Source of the DNA: Deltaproteobacteria bacterium
GTDB taxonomy: Bacteria; Myxococcota_A; UBA9042; DTJE01
NCBI GenBank assembly: GCA_029547805.1
Contig: JAKPOP010000010.1
Span: 583,675-647,674 of the forward strand
Length of the DNA stretch: 64,000 nt
Reading direction: 5' to 3'
The position numbers were made by a program, and so were the translations under genes. Below the pieces are notes generated by a model. That model had not been told where the DNA came from. It worked only from the letters and a program-made list of their open reading frames with translations, and ran no database searches. Below are positions 7,144 through 25,533 of this stretch, in pieces (the stretch's first letter is position 1; the number at the start of each line of letters is the position of its first letter).

Positions 7144-7602
7144 ATGGGAGATCGCTTCGAGCCCAGGATCGCGGTGCTCTGCTGCAACTGGTGCACGTAT
7201 GCCGGGGCGGACCTGGCCGGCACCTCCCGGATGAAGTACGCGCCGAACGTCCGGCTGGTCCGGGTGATGTGCTCTGGACGGGTGGACCCGGCCTTCGTGC
7301 TCCGGGCCTTTCAGGATGGCGCCGACGGGGTGCTGATCGCCGGCTGCCATCCCGGGGACTGCCACTACATCAACGGCAACCACAAGACGATGCGTCGCTT
7401 CCCGGTGCTCCAGCGGATGCTGCGCCAGTGGGGCATCGAGGAGGGACGCATCCGCCTCGAGTGGATCTCGGCCTCCGAGGGCGACGTCTTCGTCCGGGTG
7501 GTCAACGAGATGACCGAGGCGGTCCGGGCCCTGGGCCCGCTGGACTGGCGGACCCGGGCGGCGATGGTGGTCCCCGAAACGACCCATTCACCGGCGGAGT
7601 GA
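7144..7602 (+). CDS. mvhD: F420-non-reducing hydrogenase iron-sulfur subunit MvhD
   Basis: 152 residues. The motifs CCNWCTYAGAD, MCSGRVDP and CHPGDCHY are those of MvhD, the [2Fe-2S] adaptor that carries electrons from the MvhAG [NiFe] hydrogenase to HdrA. The family is normally about 140-150 residues, so this is full length. AAGGAGG lies just upstream of the ATG, and the gap from the hdrA stop is 13 nt. Its place between hdrA and the hydrogenase subunits is the order expected for an MvhADG-HdrABC complex. Confidence 0.93.
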   Translation: MGDRFEPRIAVLCCNWCTYAGADLAGTSRMKYAPNVRLVRVMCSGRVDPAFVLRAFQDGADGVLIAGCHPGDCHYINGNHKTMRRFPVLQRMLRQWGIEEGRIRLEWISASEGDVFVRVVNEMTEAVRALGPLDWRTRAAMVVPETTHSPAE

Positions 7603-7606
7603 GGCC

Positions 7607-8590
7607 ATGGCGGAAGGAAAACTCCAGTTGGCGATGTACTGGGCGGCCTCCTGCGGGGGCTGCGACGTGGCGGTGCTGGACGTCAACGAGAAGATCCTCG
7701 ACATCGCGGCGGCGGCGGACATCCGCCTGTGGCCCATCGCGATGGACTTCAAGTACCACGACGTCGAGGGCTGGCAGGACGGGGAGATCGACGTCTGCCT
7801 CTTCAACGGGGCGGTGCGCAACAGCGAGCAGGCCTACCTGGCCCGGCTCCTGCGGCGCAAGTCCAGGGTGATGGTGGCCTTCGGGGCCTGCGCCTCCTTC
7901 GGGGGCATCCCGGGCCTGGCCAACCTCCACGACCGGGAGTCGATCTTCCAGGCCGTCTATGGCTACACCGCGTCCACCCACAACCCCGAGGGCACAAGGC
8001 CCCAGACCCGCCTGGAGGTCCCCGAGGGGACCCTGACCCTGCCGGACTTCTTCGACGACGTCTTCGCGCTGCATCAGGTGGTGCCGGTGGAGTACTTCGT
8101 GCCCGGATGCCCGCCGACCCCGAAGACGATCATGACCGCCATCGAGGCCATCGTGACCGGCAACCTGCCCCCCCCGGGGTCCGTCGTGGGGGCCTCGACC
8201 CAGTCGGTCTGCGAGGAGTGCCAGCGGGAGAAGTCCGAGAAGCCCGTGGTCGCTGAATACCACCGGCCCCAGGAGGTCCGGGTGGACCCGAAGCGCTGCC
8301 TGCTGGAGCAGGGGCTCACCTGCATGGGGTCCGCGACCCGGGGCGGCTGCGGGGCCCTGTGCCCGGCGGTGAACATGCCCTGCCGGGGCTGCTACGGCCC
8401 GATGCCCCGGAGCCTGGACATGGGGGCCGACGCCCTGGCGGCGATGACGACGATCCTGGAGGCGGCGGACGAGGAGACGGCCCGGAACAAGACCGGGCGT
8501 CTGGCGGATCCGCTGGGGACCTTCTACCGGTTCACCTTGCCGGTGTCGATGCTGCGCCGGGCTCCGAAGGGGCCGGCGGTGCACTCGTAG
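7607..8590 (+). CDS. mvhG: [NiFe] hydrogenase small subunit (MvhG type)
   Basis: 327 residues. Cys ligands for the proximal cluster are seen in SCGGCD near the N-terminus, GACASFGG and PGCPPTPKT. The medial and distal clusters can be supplied by CEEC and the Cys-dense C-terminal stretch around CLLEQGLTC, GGCGALC and CRGC. There is no twin-arginine signal, so it is cytoplasmic, as expected for group 3 hydrogenases that work with HdrA. It passes electrons from the NiFe site to MvhD. It starts 4 nt after mvhD and is followed by the large subunit after 31 nt. Confidence 0.92.
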   Translation: MAEGKLQLAMYWAASCGGCDVAVLDVNEKILDIAAAADIRLWPIAMDFKYHDVEGWQDGEIDVCLFNGAVRNSEQAYLARLLRRKSRVMVAFGACASFGGIPGLANLHDRESIFQAVYGYTASTHNPEGTRPQTRLEVPEGTLTLPDFFDDVFALHQVVPVEYFVPGCPPTPKTIMTAIEAIVTGNLPPPGSVVGASTQSVCEECQREKSEKPVVAEYHRPQEVRVDPKRCLLEQGLTCMGSATRGGCGALCPAVNMPCRGCYGPMPRSLDMGADALAAMTTILEAADEETARNKTGRLADPLGTFYRFTLPVSMLRRAPKGPAVHS

Positions 8591-8621
8591 AAACGGGCCG
8601 ATCGGGCCCGGGGAGGACGCG

Positions 8622-10085
8622 ATGCAGACGATCACGGTGGACCCCATCACCCGGCTGGAGGGGCATGGGAAGTTCGACATCTTCCTCAACGACGAGGGAG
8701 AGGTCGAGAACGTCTATTTCCAGATCCCCGAGTTGCGGGGGATCGAGAAGTTCTGCGAGGGGCGTCCCGTCGAGGAACTGCCCCGGATCACCCAGCGGGC
8801 CTGCGGGGTCTGTCCGGGTCCCCACCACATGGCCGCCTCGAAGGCCTGCGACGGGGTCTATGGCGTGGAACCGCCCCCGGCCGGCAAGAAACTCCGGGAA
8901 CTCTTCCTGAACGCCCACTTCCTGCACAGCCACATCGCCCACTTCTATGCCCTGGCAGCCCCGGACTTCGTGGTGGGTCCCCAGGCGGACCCGACGACCC
9001 GCCACGTCCTGGGGGTGATCGCGAAGGTCGGCCTGGAGGTGGGCGGACAGGTGATCGCCTCCCGGGCCAAGGCCCAGCGAATCCAGGCCATCCTGGGCGG
9101 CAAGGCCACCCATGCGGTCTGCGGCATCCCCGGAGGCATGAGCAAGGCCCTGACCAGCCCCGAGGAGGTGGCCGAGATCCGGTCACACTGCCGGGACCTC
9201 GTGGAGTTCGGAAAGTTCACCCTGAGGCTCTTCGACCAGGTCGTCCTGCAGAACGCCGCCTACGTGGACCTGATCCTGAACGGCCCCTACACGATGAAGA
9301 CCTACTACATGGGTCTGGTGGACCCCCAGGGACGGGTGACGTTCTACGACGGGACGCTGCGGGTGATCGACGAGGACGGGGCGGAGTTCCTGCGCTTCGA
9401 CCCCCGGCGGTACACGGACCACATCGCGGAGCACGTCGAGCCCTGGTCCTACCTGAAGTTCCCCTACCTGAAGGCCATCGGCTGGAAGGGACTCGTGGCG
9501 GGAAAGGACAGCGGGGTGTACCGGGTGGCGCCCCTGGCGCGGCTCAACGTGGCCACCGGCATGGCGACCCCCGTGGCCCAGGAGGCCTATGAACAGTACT
9601 TCCAGGTCCTGGGTCCCGGGCCCGTCCATGCCACGCTGGCGAACCACTGGGCCCGGGTGATCGAACTGATGTACGCCGCCGAGCGCTGCCTGGAACTGAT
9701 CGAGGACCCGGAGACGACGTCGCCGGAGGTCCGGACGATCCCGACGGGCATCGTCGGCGAGGGGGTGGGGGTCGTGGAGGCCCCCCGGGGGACCCTGTTC
9801 CACCACTACCGGACCGACGACCAGGGCTTCGTCACGCGGTGCAACATGCTGGTGGCCACCGGCAACAACAACGCGGCCATCTGCATGAGCATCCGAGACG
9901 CGGCGAAGGGGCTGATCCGGAAGGGCGTCGAGGTCACCGAGGGCATCCTGAACCAGATCGAGATGGCCTTCCGGGCCTACGACCCCTGCTTCGGGTGCGC
10001 GACCCACTCGCTGCCGGGACAGATGCCGATGGAGGTGCGGATCCTGGACCCCCACCGGGTGGTCCGGCAGACCCTGGTCCGGTGA
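8622..10085 (+). CDS. mvhA: [NiFe] hydrogenase large subunit (MvhA type)
   Basis: 487 residues holding both NiFe-site cysteine pairs: RACGVCPGPHH near residues 60-70 and DPCFGCATH near residues 453-461. After the final His, a tail of about 25 residues remains; it is the expected substrate for the maturation protease encoded next. The protein splits or forms H2 and delivers electrons through MvhG. The combination with MvhD and HdrA classes it as a group 3c (heterodisulfide-reductase-linked) enzyme. No hyp cofactor-assembly genes are in the window. All motif residues are intact, so activity is likely. Confidence 0.94.
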   Translation: MQTITVDPITRLEGHGKFDIFLNDEGEVENVYFQIPELRGIEKFCEGRPVEELPRITQRACGVCPGPHHMAASKACDGVYGVEPPPAGKKLRELFLNAHFLHSHIAHFYALAAPDFVVGPQADPTTRHVLGVIAKVGLEVGGQVIASRAKAQRIQAILGGKATHAVCGIPGGMSKALTSPEEVAEIRSHCRDLVEFGKFTLRLFDQVVLQNAAYVDLILNGPYTMKTYYMGLVDPQGRVTFYDGTLRVIDEDGAEFLRFDPRRYTDHIAEHVEPWSYLKFPYLKAIGWKGLVAGKDSGVYRVAPLARLNVATGMATPVAQEAYEQYFQVLGPGPVHATLANHWARVIELMYAAERCLELIEDPETTSPEVRTIPTGIVGEGVGVVEAPRGTLFHHYRTDDQGFVTRCNMLVATGNNNAAICMSIRDAAKGLIRKGVEVTEGILNQIEMAFRAYDPCFGCATHSLPGQMPMEVRILDPHRVVRQTLVR

Positions 10086-18170: not shown

Positions 18171-18193
18171 GTCCCGGAGGGACTGGAGACGCG

Positions 18194-20260
18194 ATGGCCT
18201 CCGGGGATCACCGGCCTGCCCGCCTGGTGCTGCTCGAGTGCGTGACCCTGCTCCGACAGCGGGTGGACCGGGCGCAACTGTTCCCGTTCTGGGAAGGCTG
18301 GGCCCAGGACCGGGGGATCCCGGTCCGCTGGGTCTGTGTCGGGGGCCGGGGCGAACTGGAGCCCGCCGGTCAGTCCTGGTTCCGGCCCGTGGTGAACCTC
18401 GAGGAAGACGATGCCCGGCGCCTGTGCGAGGACCTCCGGCGCTGGGGTGCCACGCACATCCTGGCCAACGAGGAACTGGCGACGGAGTGGACCCGGAGGC
18501 TCACCGGGGCGATCCCGGGGATCTCGATCATCGGGGGACTCCGGTCCCCGGAGATGACCGCCTGGACTGATCGCATCCGGGAGGAGGCCGACCGGGCGGG
18601 AACGATGCCCGCCCGGTGGCGCGGCGACTCCGCCTACACCCAGATCGACGTCTGGCAGCGGGAGCGGTGGCTGTCGCGGTGGATCGGCCTCCAGGACCCC
18701 GAGGCCCGGGACGGCCCGGCGGGGCGGCGGGTGGCCGATGTCGCGGAGCCTCGATACGACGCTGAGATGTTCAACGAGGCAGCGACCCGCCTGGAGCCGA
18801 TGATCCGGATCGTGGGGGGAGTCTTCTGCGACTGGACCGCCCCCCTGCGGGACAACCCCGCCTACCGGGGAGTGGACCTCTCGGAGTCCAGCCGAGACTT
18901 CGGCTGCGCCTTCTGTGCCATGCGGACTCCCTCCCCGGCCACCGGCGACCCCATCGACCTCGCAGAACGCCAGTTTCGACGGCTGCTGTCGGCCGGGACC
19001 CGTCCGGCCCGGGACAGCGGGCGCTACGACTTCTACGACATCCGGCTCTTCCTGCGAATCGACGAGTGGGTCGCCCGGGCGACCGCGCTGGGAATTCCTC
19101 CGTCGGAATTCTGCTTCTCTCCCCGGGTGAACCATGTGCTCCAGGCCCGGGATCGCCTCCGAAAGGCCCTGCCGCTCTGCGCGGCCCACGGATACGTGGT
19201 CCGGCTCTTCCGCATCGGGGCCGAGAACGTCTCGGAAGCGGAGCAGGAGCGGTTCAACAAGGGGGTCTCGACAGACCAGATCGAGGAGGCCCTGGCCCTG
19301 TTCCGGGAGTTCGAGTCCCGGTGGCCCGGGACCTTCCAGGCGACCCAGCCCCTGGCCTTCATCACCTTCACGCCCTGGACGACGCTGGACGAGGTCCGGC
19401 TGCTGCTGGAGAAGGCCGTGCGGTGGAGATTTCCTCCCCGGGGCCGATGGCTCTTCTGCACCCTGGAGATGGACCGGGACCAGCCGATCACCGCCCTGGC
19501 CCGGGCCGCCGGGGATCTGGTCGTGCCGCAGTTCGAGGACCCGGCCTTCCTCTACTCGTCGTCGGTGGCGGGGTTCCTCCACCCCTCCCAGGTGGCCTGG
19601 CGGTTCCGAGACCGTCGGGTCGCCACCTACCATGCCGTGCTGGTTCGCTACTGCGCGGCCCTCGAGCGGGCGTTCCCGGACACGGTCTTCCACGGGGACC
19701 CCCTCTATCAGGAGATCCAGGACCGGATCCGGGAGGACGGTGGCCGTGCCGCGACCCCCCTGGCCTTTGCCCAGACCCTGGTTCGGGCCCTCGATGAGGA
19801 CCCGTCGCTGACGGACCCCGGGGACCTCTGGCGCAGGGCCTGTTCCGAACTGGTCCGGCTCGGCCTGTCGGGACCGCCCATGCGCAGTCGGATGACGTGG
19901 CTGATCCGCCGGGTGCTGGAGGCGGACCAGGCGGAGTGGAACGACCTCCATCTGGAGGACCTCCTCCATGACGAGGGTGCCCGGGAGGCGACCCTGCGGC
20001 TGCGGACCCGGGGAAGACCCTGCGCCGTGCGCATGGTGCCCGCCGGGGAGATGGAGGACCCGGACATCCGGTCCGACCGCTTCGCCGGGAAACTGGAGGA
20101 GGCGTTCCCCCAGGACCGGCCCTTCCTGCTGGCCCGGCTGGGCCGACTGTTCCGTGCCCTGGACGCCCTGGTGCCTCGCCATGCGCCGCTGTTCCTGGCG
20201 GACCCGCGGGAGGCGACGGGGACCCCCGTTGCACCGTTGGCGCCCCTTCCGGATGACTGA
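18194..20260 (+). CDS. Radical-SAM/B12-binding-like protein with incomplete cluster motif
   Basis: 688 residues, start at ATG 18194 behind GGAGAC. The N-terminal 120 residues end in ATHILANEE and GISIIGG, resembling a cobalamin-binding Rossmann domain. The middle has YRGVDL followed by RDFGCAFCAM and later FRIGAENVSEAEQERFNKG, the latter a good match to the strand and helix found in B12-dependent radical SAM proteins. The canonical CxxxCxxC needs three cysteines; here the first is Arg, leaving only CAFC. The C-terminal 200 residues are unassigned. It could be a fold relic with a new function or could bind its cluster with another ligand. It follows the unknown membrane protein by 72 nt but seems to have its own promoter. 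Confidence 0.7.
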   Translation: MASGDHRPARLVLLECVTLLRQRVDRAQLFPFWEGWAQDRGIPVRWVCVGGRGELEPAGQSWFRPVVNLEEDDARRLCEDLRRWGATHILANEELATEWTRRLTGAIPGISIIGGLRSPEMTAWTDRIREEADRAGTMPARWRGDSAYTQIDVWQRERWLSRWIGLQDPEARDGPAGRRVADVAEPRYDAEMFNEAATRLEPMIRIVGGVFCDWTAPLRDNPAYRGVDLSESSRDFGCAFCAMRTPSPATGDPIDLAERQFRRLLSAGTRPARDSGRYDFYDIRLFLRIDEWVARATALGIPPSEFCFSPRVNHVLQARDRLRKALPLCAAHGYVVRLFRIGAENVSEAEQERFNKGVSTDQIEEALALFREFESRWPGTFQATQPLAFITFTPWTTLDEVRLLLEKAVRWRFPPRGRWLFCTLEMDRDQPITALARAAGDLVVPQFEDPAFLYSSSVAGFLHPSQVAWRFRDRRVATYHAVLVRYCAALERAFPDTVFHGDPLYQEIQDRIREDGGRAATPLAFAQTLVRALDEDPSLTDPGDLWRRACSELVRLGLSGPPMRSRMTWLIRRVLEADQAEWNDLHLEDLLHDEGAREATLRLRTRGRPCAVRMVPAGEMEDPDIRSDRFAGKLEEAFPQDRPFLLARLGRLFRALDALVPRHAPLFLADPREATGTPVAPLAPLPDD

Positions 20261-20484: not shown

Positions 20485-21429
20485 ATGGCGCGGTTCCTGG
20501 TCATTGGACTCGGCCCCATCGGGTCCCTGGTAGGGGGACGGCTGGCCCGGGCGGGCCACCAGGTCCACGGGGTGGAGCGGAGGCCCGATCGCCGCCATGC
20601 CGCGTCGGAATGTCTGCGGTTGGAGACCCCCGAAGGAACCTTCGGGGTCCGCCTGGAATCGGTGGACGACTCGATTCCCGCGGCCCTGGAATCGGGGTCC
20701 TTCGATGCGACGTTCCTGTGCACCAAGGCCAACGAGGTGGTCGATGCCGCGGGACCGCTGGCGGCGGTGGAACCCGGGGGACCGGTCGTGTGTCTGCAGA
20801 ACGGCTGGGCCGTCGAGGAACCCCTGGTGACCCTGCTGGGGTCGGACCAGGTGATCCGGGGAGTGGTGCACTTCGCCGGGGAGATGCCTGACCCGGGTCA
20901 CGTGCGGCAGACCTTCGCGCACCCGCCCAACTGGGTCGGGGCCATGGGGCCCCGGGGCCCCGTCGCCGCGGAACGGGTGGCGGCGTGGCTCACCGAGGCC
21001 GGCATGGAGACCCGGGCGACGGAGCGGATCGATCTGGAGGTCTGGCGCAAGACCGTCCACCTCTGCATCCTGGCGCCCCTCTGTGCCCTGACCCGGATGA
21101 ACATGAAGGAGGCCCTGGGCCACCGGGAGATCCGGCGCCTGGCCCAGGGACTGCTGACCGAGTGCCTGGAGGTGGGGAGTCGCCTGGGGTACGACTGCGG
21201 CAACGGATTCTTCGAGGCCTCGATGGACTACGTGCTGTCCGCCGGGGACCATCCCCCGTCGATGCTCATGGACGTGATCCGGGGACGCCCCACCGAGGTC
21301 TCCTTCCTGAACGGCAAGGTGGTGGAGGCGGCCGAACGCCTGGGGATGGAGGTGCCGTTGAACCGCGCCGTCACGGCCCTCCTGACGGCCATGGAAAGCC
21401 GGTGGCCCCGGGGATCGGGCCCCTCGTGA
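20485..21429 (+). CDS. Ketopantoate reductase family 2-oxoacid reductase
   Basis: 314 residues. The N-terminal VIGLGPIGSLVGGRLARAG is a dinucleotide-binding loop, and the ApbA/PanE N- and C-terminal domains cover the protein, with a KTVHLCILAPLCALT segment at the domain join. PanE reduces 2-oxopantoate with NADPH, and relatives reduce other branched 2-oxoacids to (R)-2-hydroxyacids. It is the first gene of an operon whose next members are a 2-hydroxyacyl-CoA-dehydratase-family protein, its activator and an acyl-CoA synthetase, so a 2-hydroxyacid dehydrogenase role is at least as likely as pantothenate synthesis. Start chosen at ATG 20485 after the GGAAGGA site, downstream of the promoter. Confidence 0.85.
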   Translation: MARFLVIGLGPIGSLVGGRLARAGHQVHGVERRPDRRHAASECLRLETPEGTFGVRLESVDDSIPAALESGSFDATFLCTKANEVVDAAGPLAAVEPGGPVVCLQNGWAVEEPLVTLLGSDQVIRGVVHFAGEMPDPGHVRQTFAHPPNWVGAMGPRGPVAAERVAAWLTEAGMETRATERIDLEVWRKTVHLCILAPLCALTRMNMKEALGHREIRRLAQGLLTECLEVGSRLGYDCGNGFFEASMDYVLSAGDHPPSMLMDVIRGRPTEVSFLNGKVVEAAERLGMEVPLNRAVTALLTAMESRWPRGSGPS

Positions 21430-21437
21430 GGACGGTC

Positions 21438-22664
21438 ATGGCGAGGCTCGCCTGCACGACGGCACTGCAGGACCGCATGCGCGAGGCCTACCGGGAGGTC
21501 ATCGAGGCCGCTTCGGACCCGGGGCAGCGCGTGGCCTGGTGCAGCAGCGTGGGGCCCGTGGAACTCCTGCGAGCCCTGGGCTTCCGGGTCTTCATCCCCG
21601 AGAACCACGCGGCCATGCTCGGGGCCTCCCGGATGGCCACGGACCTGATCCCCGAGGCGACGGCACTGGGATACTCGCCGGACATCTGTTCCTACCTGAC
21701 CTCCGACATCGGGGCCTTCTGCCGAGGCGTGACGGCCCTCTCCCGGGTGGACCCGTCCTTCCGGGAGGTCCCGCGGCCCGACGTGCTGGTCCACGAGAGC
21801 CAGCAGTGCCGCGAGGTCGGAGACTGGTTCCAGTGGTACGGGGACCGCCTGGGGGTGCCGGTGCTGGGAGTCCCGGCCCCCCGGGCCGTCGAGGAGGTGA
21901 CCCCGGACCTGGTCCAGGCCCTGGCATCCCGGATCGAGGCCCTGGTCGAGCCCCTGGAGGCCATCGCCGGGCGATCCCTGGACCTGGCCCGCCTCCGGGA
22001 CGTCGTCGCCATCTCCCGGGAGACCTCCCGTCGCTGGCAGCAGGTGCTGGCGATGGGGGAGGTCCGTCCGGCGCCCTGGACCTTCTTCGACGCCTGCATC
22101 CAGATGGGGCCGGCGGTGGTGCTCCGAGGGGATCGGAGGGCCCTGGCCCACTACGACCTCCTCCAGGAGGAACTGCGGCATCGGGTCATGGCGGGGGTCG
22201 CCGCGGTGCCGGAGGAACAGGTGCGCCTCTACTGGGAGGGAATGCCCATCTGGGGCCGCCTCCGGGACCTCTCGGAGCGCCTGGCCTCCCTCCGGGCCGC
22301 CGTGGTCGGCAGCACCTACTGCTCCTCGTGGGTCTTCGAGGCCCTGGACCCCGATCGACCCTTCGAGTCGATGGCGCAGGCCGGCCTGGAACTCTTCATC
22401 AGCCGAACCGATCCCGTGAAGGAGCGAATCCTGGAGGAAGAGGCGCGCCGCTACTCGGTATCGGGCATCGTCTTCCACGACGCCAAGACCTGCCCCTACA
22501 ACAGCAACTCCCGTTTCGGGATGCCCCGGCGGCTGACCCGGGATCGCGGCATCCCGACCGTGACGATCCAGAGCGACCTGAACGACCTGCGACTGCACTT
22601 CGACGAGGGAGTGCACCTGGCCCTCGAGGCCTTCGTGGAGCAGTGCCGGGAGGCCATGCCGTGA
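21438..22664 (+). CDS. 2-hydroxyacyl-CoA dehydratase D-component / double-cubane cluster protein
   Basis: 408 residues belonging to the HgdB/FldBC/BcrBC family of iron-sulfur proteins. Conserved-looking cysteines occur in WCSSVGP, ICSYLTSD, SQQCREV, STYCSSW and KTCPYNSNS. Classical dehydratases and benzoyl-CoA reductases use two different such subunits; only one is encoded here, with its ATPase activator directly downstream (GTGA overlap). That single-subunit layout matches the E. coli YjiM/YjiL pair and the double-cubane cluster protein described from Carboxydothermus. The substrate is therefore open: a 2-hydroxyacyl-CoA if a homodimer does the dehydration, or a small molecule if it is a true double-cubane protein. 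It needs low-potential electrons, which the Hdr-Mvh system could supply as ferredoxin. Confidence 0.85.
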   Translation: MARLACTTALQDRMREAYREVIEAASDPGQRVAWCSSVGPVELLRALGFRVFIPENHAAMLGASRMATDLIPEATALGYSPDICSYLTSDIGAFCRGVTALSRVDPSFREVPRPDVLVHESQQCREVGDWFQWYGDRLGVPVLGVPAPRAVEEVTPDLVQALASRIEALVEPLEAIAGRSLDLARLRDVVAISRETSRRWQQVLAMGEVRPAPWTFFDACIQMGPAVVLRGDRRALAHYDLLQEELRHRVMAGVAAVPEEQVRLYWEGMPIWGRLRDLSERLASLRAAVVGSTYCSSWVFEALDPDRPFESMAQAGLELFISRTDPVKERILEEEARRYSVSGIVFHDAKTCPYNSNSRFGMPRRLTRDRGIPTVTIQSDLNDLRLHFDEGVHLALEAFVEQCREAMP

Positions 22665-23461
22665 CGCGACGGAAGCCCGTGCTGGGGGTCGACATCGGGT
22701 CGTCCTACGGAAAGGCGGTGCTGCTGGACCGGGAAGGACGGGTGTTGGCCCGGGCGGTGCGGCCCACGGGGATCGACTTCGCCGGAACCGCCCGGACCCT
22801 GGTCCAGGAGGTGACCGACGGGGGCAGGGTTCCCCCGGAGGCCGTCGAGGTCGTTGCAACGGGCTACGGGCGGCAGGAGGTCCCCGGGGCCATGCGTCAG
22901 GTCACCGAGGTGACCTGCCAGGCCCTGGCGGCATGGCACCTCTTCCGGCGCCCCCTGACGCTGATCGACATCGGGGGGCAGGACACCAAGGTGATCGAGG
23001 TGGACCCCGGGGGCCGACGGCGGTCCTTCCACCTGAACCGCAAGTGCGCTTCGGGCACCGGGGCCTTCCTGGAGGAGATGGCCGGTCGCCTCGGGACCGA
23101 CCCGACCGGCATGGAGCGCCTGGCGGAGGAAGGCCTGGAGGCGGCGACCCTCTCGTCCTTCTGCACGGTCTTCGCCCGCAGCGAACTGCTGGCGCTGGCC
23201 CGCCAGGGACGCTCCCCGGGAGACATCGCCCTGGGAGTCTTCGACGCGGTGGTGCGCCGGGTCCTGGAGATGGCCCGGCCCCAGGGGGAGGTGGCCCTGA
23301 CCGGCGGCGCGGCGCGAGGCGTGCTGGTGCGCCGCATGGAACGAGCCCTGGGACGAACGGTGCTGGTCCCGGAGCATCCCCAGTTCACCGGGGCCCTGGG
23401 GGCCGCATTGCTGGGCCTCCGGGGAGACGGCGACCAGCCCGAAGAGGAGGTGTCCCGGTGA
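22661..23461 (+). CDS. ATP-dependent activator of 2-hydroxyacyl-CoA dehydratase / double-cubane protein reductase
   Basis: 266 residues, GTG start overlapping the previous stop. ASKHA ATPase motifs are plain: GVDIGSSYGKAV (phosphate 1), LIDIGGQDTKVI (phosphate 2) and LTGGAARG (adenosine loop). Two cysteines, in NRKCASGTGAF and SFCTVFA, form the single [4Fe-4S] cluster shared by the homodimer. The protein couples ATP hydrolysis to electron transfer at very low potential into the partner protein encoded immediately upstream. Length matches HgdC/FldI/YjiL-type activators. Confidence 0.9.
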   Translation: MTRRKPVLGVDIGSSYGKAVLLDREGRVLARAVRPTGIDFAGTARTLVQEVTDGGRVPPEAVEVVATGYGRQEVPGAMRQVTEVTCQALAAWHLFRRPLTLIDIGGQDTKVIEVDPGGRRRSFHLNRKCASGTGAFLEEMAGRLGTDPTGMERLAEEGLEAATLSSFCTVFARSELLALARQGRSPGDIALGVFDAVVRRVLEMARPQGEVALTGGAARGVLVRRMERALGRTVLVPEHPQFTGALGAALLGLRGDGDQPEEEVSR

Positions 23462-25533
23462 GCCTCGATGCCCTGTTCCGTCCCCGGACGGTGGCGGTGT
23501 TCGGGGCGACCCCCCGACCGGGGACCATCGGGCACCAGGTGGTCCGCAACCTCGTCGAGTCGGGGTTCACGGGCCAGGTGATCCCCGTGAATCCCAGGGG
23601 CGAGGCGGTCTGCGGCCTGCCGGCGGTGACCTCCCTGGAGGCGGTCCCTGGGGGAGCGGACCTGGCCTCCATCGCCGTGCGGGCCGAGCGGGTCCCGGAG
23701 GTGCTTCGCCAGTGCGGGTCCGCCGGGGTCCGGGCCGCCATCGTCCACTCGGCGGGCTTCGCCGAGGCCGGGCCCCCCGGAGCAGTGCTGCAGGACCAGT
23801 GCCTGGAGATCGCCCGGGAACGGGGAATCCGGTTGCTGGGTCCCAATGCCCAGGGCGTCCAGAACGGCGATCCGGCGGTGCGTCTCTATGCGACCTTCAC
23901 CTTCACGCCGCTGCGGCCGGGTCCGGTATCGATCGTGGCCCAGAGCGGGGGCGTGGCCGAACTGCTGAACCTCCATCTCCGGCGGGCAGGGGTGGGGACT
24001 CGCCTCTATGCAAGCCCCGGAAATGCCGCAGATATCGACATCGCAGACCTGCTGGACGAGGCCTCGATGGATCCGGGCACGGGGGTCGTGCTGCTGCACC
24101 TGGAGGGAGCGGCGGACCCGGCGAGGCTGCTCGGGGCGCTGGTGCGATGCCGGGAAGCGGGGCAGGAGGTGCTGGTGCTGGCCGGCGGGCGTCACGAGGC
24201 GGGCCGGGAGGCCGTGGCCTCCCACACCGGGGCCCTCGCGGCCTCGGGGGGACTGCTGGAGGCCCTCCTGGTCCGGGCCGGTGCCCGGCAGGTCCAGGGG
24301 GCCCGGGAGGCGGTGGACCGGGCGGTGGGCCTGAGCCTCGGACCCCGGGCGACGGGTCGCCGGGTCGCGGTGGTCTGCAACGCCGGCGGGACGGGAATCC
24401 TGGCCCTGGAGGCGGCCCTGGACGCGGGCCTGAGCCCGGCCTGCCTGGAGGACCAGACCCGGAAGCACCTCCGGGAGGGGCAGTCCCCCCTGGCGAGCAT
24501 CGGGACGATTGTCGACCTCACGGCGACGGCGGAACCGCCCCAGGTCGCCTCGGCCCTCGGAGGCGTCCTCTCTGATCCGGGGGTGGACGCCGTGCTGCTG
24601 TCCCTCGTGACGCCCTTCTACCTGGACGAGGTGGCCCTCTGCGGGAGCGTGGTGGAGGCCGCTCGGGGGTCCCGGAAACCGCTGGTCGTGCACCTGATCG
24701 CGAATCCCCGGAGGCCCGATGGGGAACGGGTCCTCCGGGAGGGAGGCGTTCCGACCTACCCCTTCCCCGAGGAGGCCGCCACGGCCCTGTCGGCCCTCGT
24801 GGCCGCCGGGGACCCGAAGGGGCAGTCCCTCGGCACCGACCGGCCCACGGCCATCGGCCCTCGGCCGGCACCAGGGTCCCAGGAAGGCCGCTGGCTGTCC
24901 CTCGAGGAGGCCTTCGACCTGCTGGAGGCCCAGGGGGTGCCCTGCCTGGCTCGCCAGGGGATCCGGAACCCCCGGGACCTGGCCCTTCCGCCATTCCCCC
25001 CGCCCTGGGTCCTCAAGGCCGACCTCCCCGAGGGGGCCCACAAGGCCCGCCAGGGAGCCGTGGTTCGGGGGATTGCATCCTTCGAGGACCTCGCCCGGGA
25101 GGCCGCGAGGCTCCAGGGGCGCTTTCCGGGGCGCCCGCTCCTGGTCCAGCCGGAGGTTGCCATCGGGATCGAACTGGCCCTGGGCCTCCTCCGGGAACCC
25201 ACGGGCCTGTGGCTGGCGATGGCCGGTCCGGGCGGCCCGGCGATCGAGGAGCGACGGGGCGTGCGCTTCCGCCTGTGCCCCCTGTCCCTCGACGAGGCCC
25301 GGGAAGCCCTGGGCATGGGCGGGTCCGGGGCGGATCCCCTGCCAGGGGTCCCGCTCGAGGTGCGGGAGGCCCTGGCCGGGGCCTGGATGACCCTCTCCCG
25401 GCTCCCGTCCTTGGTCCCGAGCCTCCGGGAACTGGACCTGAACCCCCTGGTCTGGACCCCGTCGGGCCTGGCGGCGGTGGATGTCCGGGTCCGGGTCCTG
25501 CCTCCACCCGGCACCGATGCGCCGGGTCCCTGA
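23458..25533 (+). CDS. ADP-forming acyl-CoA synthetase (fused alpha-beta)
   Basis: 691 residues, GTG start with a 4-nt overlap to the activator gene. Order: CoA-binding Rossmann domain (AVFGATPRPGTIG, VNPRG), succinyl-CoA-ligase-like domains (AQSGGVAELL, then SHTGALA with the phosphorylated His, and VVCNAGGTG), and an ATP-grasp beta part from about residue 475 ending in LRELDLNPLVW. These enzymes convert acyl-CoA, ADP and phosphate to the acid, CoA and ATP, a substrate-level energy-conserving step in anaerobes; the reverse activates acids. Translational coupling with a dehydratase-family pair suggests it handles the product or substrate of that pathway. The acyl specificity cannot be read from sequence. 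Confidence 0.9.
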   Translation: MSLDALFRPRTVAVFGATPRPGTIGHQVVRNLVESGFTGQVIPVNPRGEAVCGLPAVTSLEAVPGGADLASIAVRAERVPEVLRQCGSAGVRAAIVHSAGFAEAGPPGAVLQDQCLEIARERGIRLLGPNAQGVQNGDPAVRLYATFTFTPLRPGPVSIVAQSGGVAELLNLHLRRAGVGTRLYASPGNAADIDIADLLDEASMDPGTGVVLLHLEGAADPARLLGALVRCREAGQEVLVLAGGRHEAGREAVASHTGALAASGGLLEALLVRAGARQVQGAREAVDRAVGLSLGPRATGRRVAVVCNAGGTGILALEAALDAGLSPACLEDQTRKHLREGQSPLASIGTIVDLTATAEPPQVASALGGVLSDPGVDAVLLSLVTPFYLDEVALCGSVVEAARGSRKPLVVHLIANPRRPDGERVLREGGVPTYPFPEEAATALSALVAAGDPKGQSLGTDRPTAIGPRPAPGSQEGRWLSLEEAFDLLEAQGVPCLARQGIRNPRDLALPPFPPPWVLKADLPEGAHKARQGAVVRGIASFEDLAREAARLQGRFPGRPLLVQPEVAIGIELALGLLREPTGLWLAMAGPGGPAIEERRGVRFRLCPLSLDEAREALGMGGSGADPLPGVPLEVREALAGAWMTLSRLPSLVPSLRELDLNPLVWTPSGLAAVDVRVRVLPPPGTDAPGP

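Follow-up and report, generated by a model that had tools for sequence, protein, structure and literature searches.

Genes and predicted fold at the locus

The 64-kb stretch of DNA analysed here (the window) carries a gene for a radical SAM-like protein that lies upstream of genes for a reductase, two dehydratase-related proteins and an acyl-CoA ligase (Table 1). The reading frame is open from 18143, or from the ATG at 18194, and the sequence GGAG stands at 18185–18188, five bases upstream of this ATG. Measured against L053, the corresponding gene of a congener, dN is 0.110 and dS 0.461 (dN/dS of about 0.24), so the gene is under purifying selection. Because the frame is open and this ratio low, the pseudogene reading can be discarded, in agreement with the original prediction that the gene had not decayed.

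Table 1. Features of the window and nitrogenase-like gene sets near related genes elsewhere
Feature	Position	Strand	Basis or remark
Upstream neighbour, 780 aa	15779..18121	+	Nothing above the Pfam or NCBIfam cut-offs; 88% identity to the congener's protein
Displaced-cysteine radical SAM gene (predicted), 688 aa	18194..20260	+	ORF, Pfam, AlphaFold2, upstream GGAG
N-terminal Rossmann-like domain (predicted), about residues 8-120	18215..18553	+	AlphaFold2, structural match; place of the B12-binding domain in B12-type enzymes
Radical SAM barrel (predicted), residues 183-492	18740..19669	+	Barrel model and structural match; Pfam Radical_SAM below cut-off
Cys212, proposed first cluster ligand	18827..18829	+	27/27 rows; 5 residues past end of strand beta-1 (204-207); structural register
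Insert (about residues 216-237) that separates the first Cys from the second	18839..18904	+	NPxY/F, invariant Asn221
Arg234, flagged in the original prediction, inside the insert	18893..18895	+	Unconserved across the clade
Cys238-Ala-Phe-Cys241, proposed second and third cluster ligands	18905..18916	+	Each 27/27 rows
PanE/ApbA-like reductase (ketopantoate reductase family)	20485..21429	+	Pfam, NCBIfam; start chosen by us
HgdB-like 2-hydroxyacyl-CoA dehydratase D-component	21432..22664	+	Pfam, NCBIfam, congener; start chosen by us
HgdC-like acyl-CoA dehydratase activase (ATPase)	22661..23461	+	Pfam, NCBIfam, congener; start chosen by us
Acyl-CoA ligase (relative of acetate--CoA ligase alpha subunit, scoring under that model's cut-off)	23458..25533	+	Pfam, NCBIfam, congener; start chosen by us
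Nitrogenase-like sets	L091:7029-17976 (G000:C14), L098, L056:11060-15702, L060, L062, L067		Near displaced-Cys radical SAM genes

By sequence the protein is hardly recognisable. Pfam returned Radical_SAM alone, at an E-value of 0.0053 and 17.4 bits (cut-off 29.5), and no match to a B12-binding domain. The only NCBIfam matches, both at residues 300–406, were to CUAEP (NF040546, the CUAEP/CCAEP-tail radical SAM (seleno)protein) and ArsL (NF040542), with scores of 20.7 and 15.8 bits that fall far under the curated cut-offs of 500 and 450; no QueE model was among the matches up to an E-value of 1. A search of PDB sequences with the protein itself found no radical SAM relative, and the same search with an alignment of 27 family rows (A3) found weak ones only, the best at an E-value of 0.065.

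The fold prediction is much more informative. AlphaFold2 run on A3 gave a model with a pLDDT of 87.5 and a pTM of 0.83, and a model of the barrel only (residues 183–492) reached 88.7 and 0.86. Compared with the PDB by VIA-align, the full model matched OxsB best (Z 14.5, 4.5 Å, 419 residues aligned, the match beginning at residue 7), followed by AprD4 (Z 13.1), CysS and MgmA (12.8 each), RimO (12.1), MiaB (12.0) and TsrM (11.7), while the barrel model aligned with OxsB over 255 residues at 3.1 Å (Z 14.3); QueE was not among the structural matches listed. The predicted arrangement of a Rossmann-like domain followed by a barrel is that of OxsB (5ul3), AprD4 (6fd2), CysS (9n1d), TsrM and TokK, and identity to the solved B12-type enzymes in structural alignments is 9–16%. 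The model thus has the radical SAM superfamily fold, a partial TIM barrel with the cluster site after strand β1, and the B12-type architecture proposed in the original prediction is borne out as a predicted fold.

The PanE-like, HgdB-like, HgdC-like and acyl-CoA ligase genes are retained in the congener at 75–88% identity. No HgdB or HgdC gene was found in the 9.1-kb stretch covered for the next orthologue, L054, and we treat these two proteins as a lead to conserved partners. No NifH- or NifDK-like frame was found within the window. Genes for a [NiFe] hydrogenase of the methyl-viologen-reducing type (FlpD, Oxidored_q6, NiFeSe_Hases) lie at 7144–10085 of the window and point to an anaerobic life style.

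Cysteines of the putative cluster site

The protein had been described as lacking the first cluster cysteine, with arginine in its place in a motif RxxxCAFC. The motif is there as described (R234-D-F-G-C238-A-F-C241, with Arg234 four residues before Cys238), but the description overlooked Cys212, which sits 26 residues ahead of Cys238 and gives the spacing CX25CX2C instead of CX3CX2C. Seven residues are invariant in the 27 rows of A3, namely W46, C212, N221, C238, C241, R311 and P394; among the 12 cysteines of the protein only C212, C238 and C241 belong to them, the next-best conserved cysteine being present in 11 of 26 rows. Three conserved cysteines with a variant spacing are therefore available as candidate cluster ligands, as judged from the sequences.

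The same pattern extends through the family. From open frames that matched the HMM at an E-value below 1e-20 and contained the motif C-x-[FYL]-C we collected 69 distinct windows around the motif including the query, several frames supplying more than one; a window from L047 that belongs to a second, canonical radical SAM domain was set aside, which left 68 to be counted, and matching frames without the motif (short or cut) lie outside this count. All 68 motif windows have an upstream cysteine with 22–33 residues, mostly 25 or 26, before CX2C, and the canonical CX3CX2C spacing occurs in none. Further members outside the models agree: in 15 of 15 (L117, L118, L119, L121, L123, L124, L125, L128, L133 and L140–L145) there are 24–27 residues between the first cysteine and CX2C. 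A separate branch, L136–L139, has a far longer insert (CX42-45CX2C in 4/4), and here too a cysteine in a GCxY/W context is still present further upstream. Weaker matches in the phylum, e.g. G054 and G073:C55, fall outside these 19 further members. Across the members the gap between the first and second cysteine is thus 22 to 45 residues.

In the AlphaFold2 model, strand 204–207 is followed up to residue 252 by loop and short turns only, and this segment contains C212, C238 and C241; Cys212 is predicted to follow strand β1 as the first cysteine of the canonical enzymes does. The register was read from the residue pairs with which selected rows of the structural alignments begin, and extrapolated over 8–13 residues as if free of gaps. 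In the row of RimO (2qgq_C), residue 136 pairs with barrel residue 18, so that Cys212 (barrel residue 30) falls on RimO Cys148 and Pro202 on Pro138. The sequence of the RimO chain has P138 and the C148 of CDRGCTFC at these positions, and hence the proline ten residues before the cysteine coincides too. This proline is found in 19 of the 27 displaced-cysteine rows, and the same spacing of ten in 11 of 19 canonical proteins, one of which (L085, in the wrong frame) cannot be scored. The viperin pairings (20 with 74, 22 with 76) extrapolate Cys212 to residue 84, and a HydE pairing (3iiz, 17 with 50) to residue 63, both of which we take to be the first cluster cysteine. Rows that start further upstream give a different register (HydE 5ff2 and 3cix, 13 with 48, extrapolate to 65, and RimO 4jc0, 1 with 127, to 156), since gaps may intervene.

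Profile alignment with hhalign puts the canonical first cysteine elsewhere. It matched A3 to the canonical set at E-values of 5e-18 to 1.5e-17 among the matches listed, did not bridge the insert and placed the canonical first cysteine on residue 232, inside the insert, instead of on Cys212. We gave the structural register and the invariance of Cys212 more weight than this placement. It is one argument for a rival in which the first ligand is a cysteine at position −6 (CX5CX2C, the HmdB spacing), lost in the window copy. Residue 232 is Ser in the window protein and Cys in both L053 and L054, and the congener and this next orthologue are among the 12 of 68 motif windows with such a cysteine, which could serve as a ligand there. 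As a general ligand it is ruled out by its absence from the other 56, against 27/27 rows for each of C212, C238 and C241, and in the model it is Cys212, not residue 232, that closely follows β1; we regard this rival as improbable.

A true loss of the first cysteine, leaving the protein with no cluster or an unusual two-cysteine one, as a pseudo-enzyme or with some other chemistry, appears very improbable. What speaks for it is that both of the nearest orthologues share Arg234, the codon being CGA, CGG and CGG in the window gene, L053 and L054. The same fact disposes of a private loss, and because both orthologues have Arg the residue is not a sequencing error; nor did we find homologues with cysteine at −4 (0/68 motif windows), the other circumstance that the original prediction had named as telling against it. 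Arg is, however, not fixed in the clade, a point that the prediction had proposed to check: residue 234 varies freely in A3, and Arg stands at −4 in 14 of the 68 motif windows. A position that is unconserved and never cysteine does not look like a vacated ligand site, and Cys212, invariant and just past β1, argues against the loss directly.

Least probable of all is that Cys212 is conserved for another reason (an auxiliary site, a disulfide, a substrate thiolate or a cobalamin ligand) while something other than cysteine serves as the third cluster ligand: the invariance of W46, N221, R311 and P394 does show that further constraints act on the protein, but the place of Cys212 relative to β1 fits the canonical first cysteine, and members with longer inserts still have the upstream cysteine in its GCxY/W context.

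The window protein thus very probably keeps three cluster cysteines, with Cys212 as the first, and its supposed lack of one is most likely a misreading of a cysteine that an insertion has pushed about 22 residues upstream.

Relatives and their genomic surroundings

The genome of the window contains two paralogues, 36% and 32% identical to the window protein, with the motifs SRRGGCTFC and CRVITGCSYC in place of its SSRDFGCAFC. The orthologue in the congener G001 and locus L053 have identical motif and score. A family match at an E-value of 0.001 occurs in 33 of 52 genomes, the own one included; of the 282 genomes sampled across the phylum, 49 matched the barrel alignment at 1e-10 or better, and 14 of the 49 have at least two matches. 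Genome contigs gave 18 loci from Myxococcota, Elusimicrobiota and other MAGs, and in each of the eight genomes reached through loci there are 2 to 8 matches, some of which are fragments of the same gene. In several distant members the frame also encodes a second domain, with canonical CX3CX2C: in L011, L013, L119, L121, L124, L128 and L133 the displaced-cysteine barrel is followed by such a motif within a single frame, and in L011 and L013 NCBIfam detects a radical SAM domain at this second motif.

In a quick tree that left out everything up to CX2C, and thus the motif, and was built without bootstrap, 35 displaced-cysteine rows fell on one side of a branch with an SH-aLRT of 99. The remaining rows were 18 canonical and two methylthiotransferase-like proteins, L085 having been dropped and L073 being absent. 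The branch neighbours two canonical CUAEP-type proteins, L071 and L072 (SH-aLRT 96), which are the nearest sampled only, since all canonical rows derive from a single family search within the phylum. These neighbours have CX3CX2C, unlike the window protein, as does ArsL, with Cys194, Cys198 and Cys201 according to an excerpt of PMC8552651. An ancestor with CX3CX2C and one insertion fits these data best as the origin of the family.

Of 14 genomes with a close member, 11 carry a copy together with NifH- or NifDK-like frames on a single stretch, among the matches listed. These 14 were chosen by a best seed-HMM E-value below about 1e-52 (G000, G001, G002, G007, G008, G014, G046 and G282–G288); G007, G014 and G284 are the exceptions, and the genome that ranks next, G011 (1.2e-51), lacks any Oxidored_nitro match among those listed. 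One of the cases is a paralogue in the own genome, on C14, which has a NifH-like gene and, among the matches listed, four to Oxidored_nitro in its neighbourhood. In the wider set at least 5 of 33 genomes (G000, G001, G002, G008 and G046) have a family match and Oxidored_nitro on one contig, so that a partnership of nitrogenase-like genes with the family as a whole is not borne out among the matches listed and the link in the wider family is weak. The CUAEP search in G000–G051 served as a rough control: of the 29 places it listed, only some of them confirmed as canonical, none shares a contig with Oxidored_nitro among the matches listed.

The nitrogenase-like sets near displaced-cysteine genes (NifH-like and/or Oxidored_nitro; Table 1) occur in Myxococcota and Elusimicrobia MAGs, and the eight nitrogenase-like proteins that were checked reached the cut-off of none of the NCBIfam models listed. 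At L062:10508-13453 a single open frame encodes a canonical radical SAM domain and, after it, one of nitrogenase component 1. G006, a relative from the same family, has at least 28 Oxidored_nitro matches over many contigs and no displaced-cysteine barrel at an E-value of 1e-10. A radical SAM gene beside nifHDK-like genes, as seen with several displaced-cysteine members, is also the arrangement of NifB, MarB, NfaB and IsrB, the known radical SAM partners of nitrogenase-like enzymes (PMC11423573); an excerpt of that paper describes these four as alike in the radical SAM motif only.

Proposed function and meaning of the displaced cysteine

Taken together, the sequence conservation and the fold model make it highly likely that the gene encodes an intact radical SAM enzyme with B12-type architecture, in which a [4Fe-4S] cluster would be held by Cys212, Cys238 and Cys241 in a CX25CX2C arrangement; it is probably active. 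The first cysteine would still occupy its ancestral position in the loop that follows strand β1, separated from the CX2C pair by an insertion of about 22 residues that bears NPxY/F and Asn221. This insert probably folds back over the cluster or the SAM pocket, where it may act as a lid. We infer that SAM would be cleaved reductively, as expected from the canonical relatives, that cobalamin may be used and that the substrate would be a small molecule of an anaerobic pathway working at low potential, as the ATP-driven reductases encoded nearby suggest.

A broader proposal is more tentative. The CX22-45CX2C proteins of Myxococcota and Elusimicrobiota MAGs might be a monophyletic clade that works with ATP-driven low-potential reductases, nitrogenase-like NifH/NifDK in some and HgdC/HgdB in the lineage of the window, to make a cofactor or metabolite, and the NPxY loop might be a new active-site lid gating SAM or corrinoid. 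We consider this possible but rather doubtful.

Radical SAM enzymes are normally identified through the CX3CX2C motif and through family models, and both routes miss the window protein and most of the relatives tested: Pfam Radical_SAM gave no match even at an E-value of 1 in 7 of 9 aligned members, and the best-matching NCBIfam family matched 7 of 27 members at 0.01. Those distant members that have a second, canonical domain would still be picked up through it.

In the solved chains of OxsB and AprD4 the first and second cysteines are a few residues apart, unlike in the window protein. Variants such as CX14CX2C are nonetheless accepted in the superfamily; an excerpt of PMC4389238 names CX3CX2C, CX5CX2C (HmdB) and CX14CX2C (QueE), with ThiC and PhnJ built differently. 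HmdB also departs from the canonical spacing between the first two cysteines, but only slightly (PMC4389238), and its spacing is the one found in 12/68 motif windows here. QueE follows the same principle as the present family, in that its cluster site is canonical and has "one extended loop", over a shorter distance (PMC4389238). The 22–45 residues between the first and second cysteines of the displaced-cysteine proteins exceed the 3, 5 and 14 of the spacings named in that excerpt. A radical SAM clade with CX22-45CX2C was not described among the papers listed by the literature searches, which covered few subscription journals, and the papers found for the spacings 23 to 27 were, by title, not on radical SAM enzymes; the variant is apparently undescribed. 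Where a radical SAM protein is called as missing its first cysteine, the sequence upstream of the CX2C pair should be checked.
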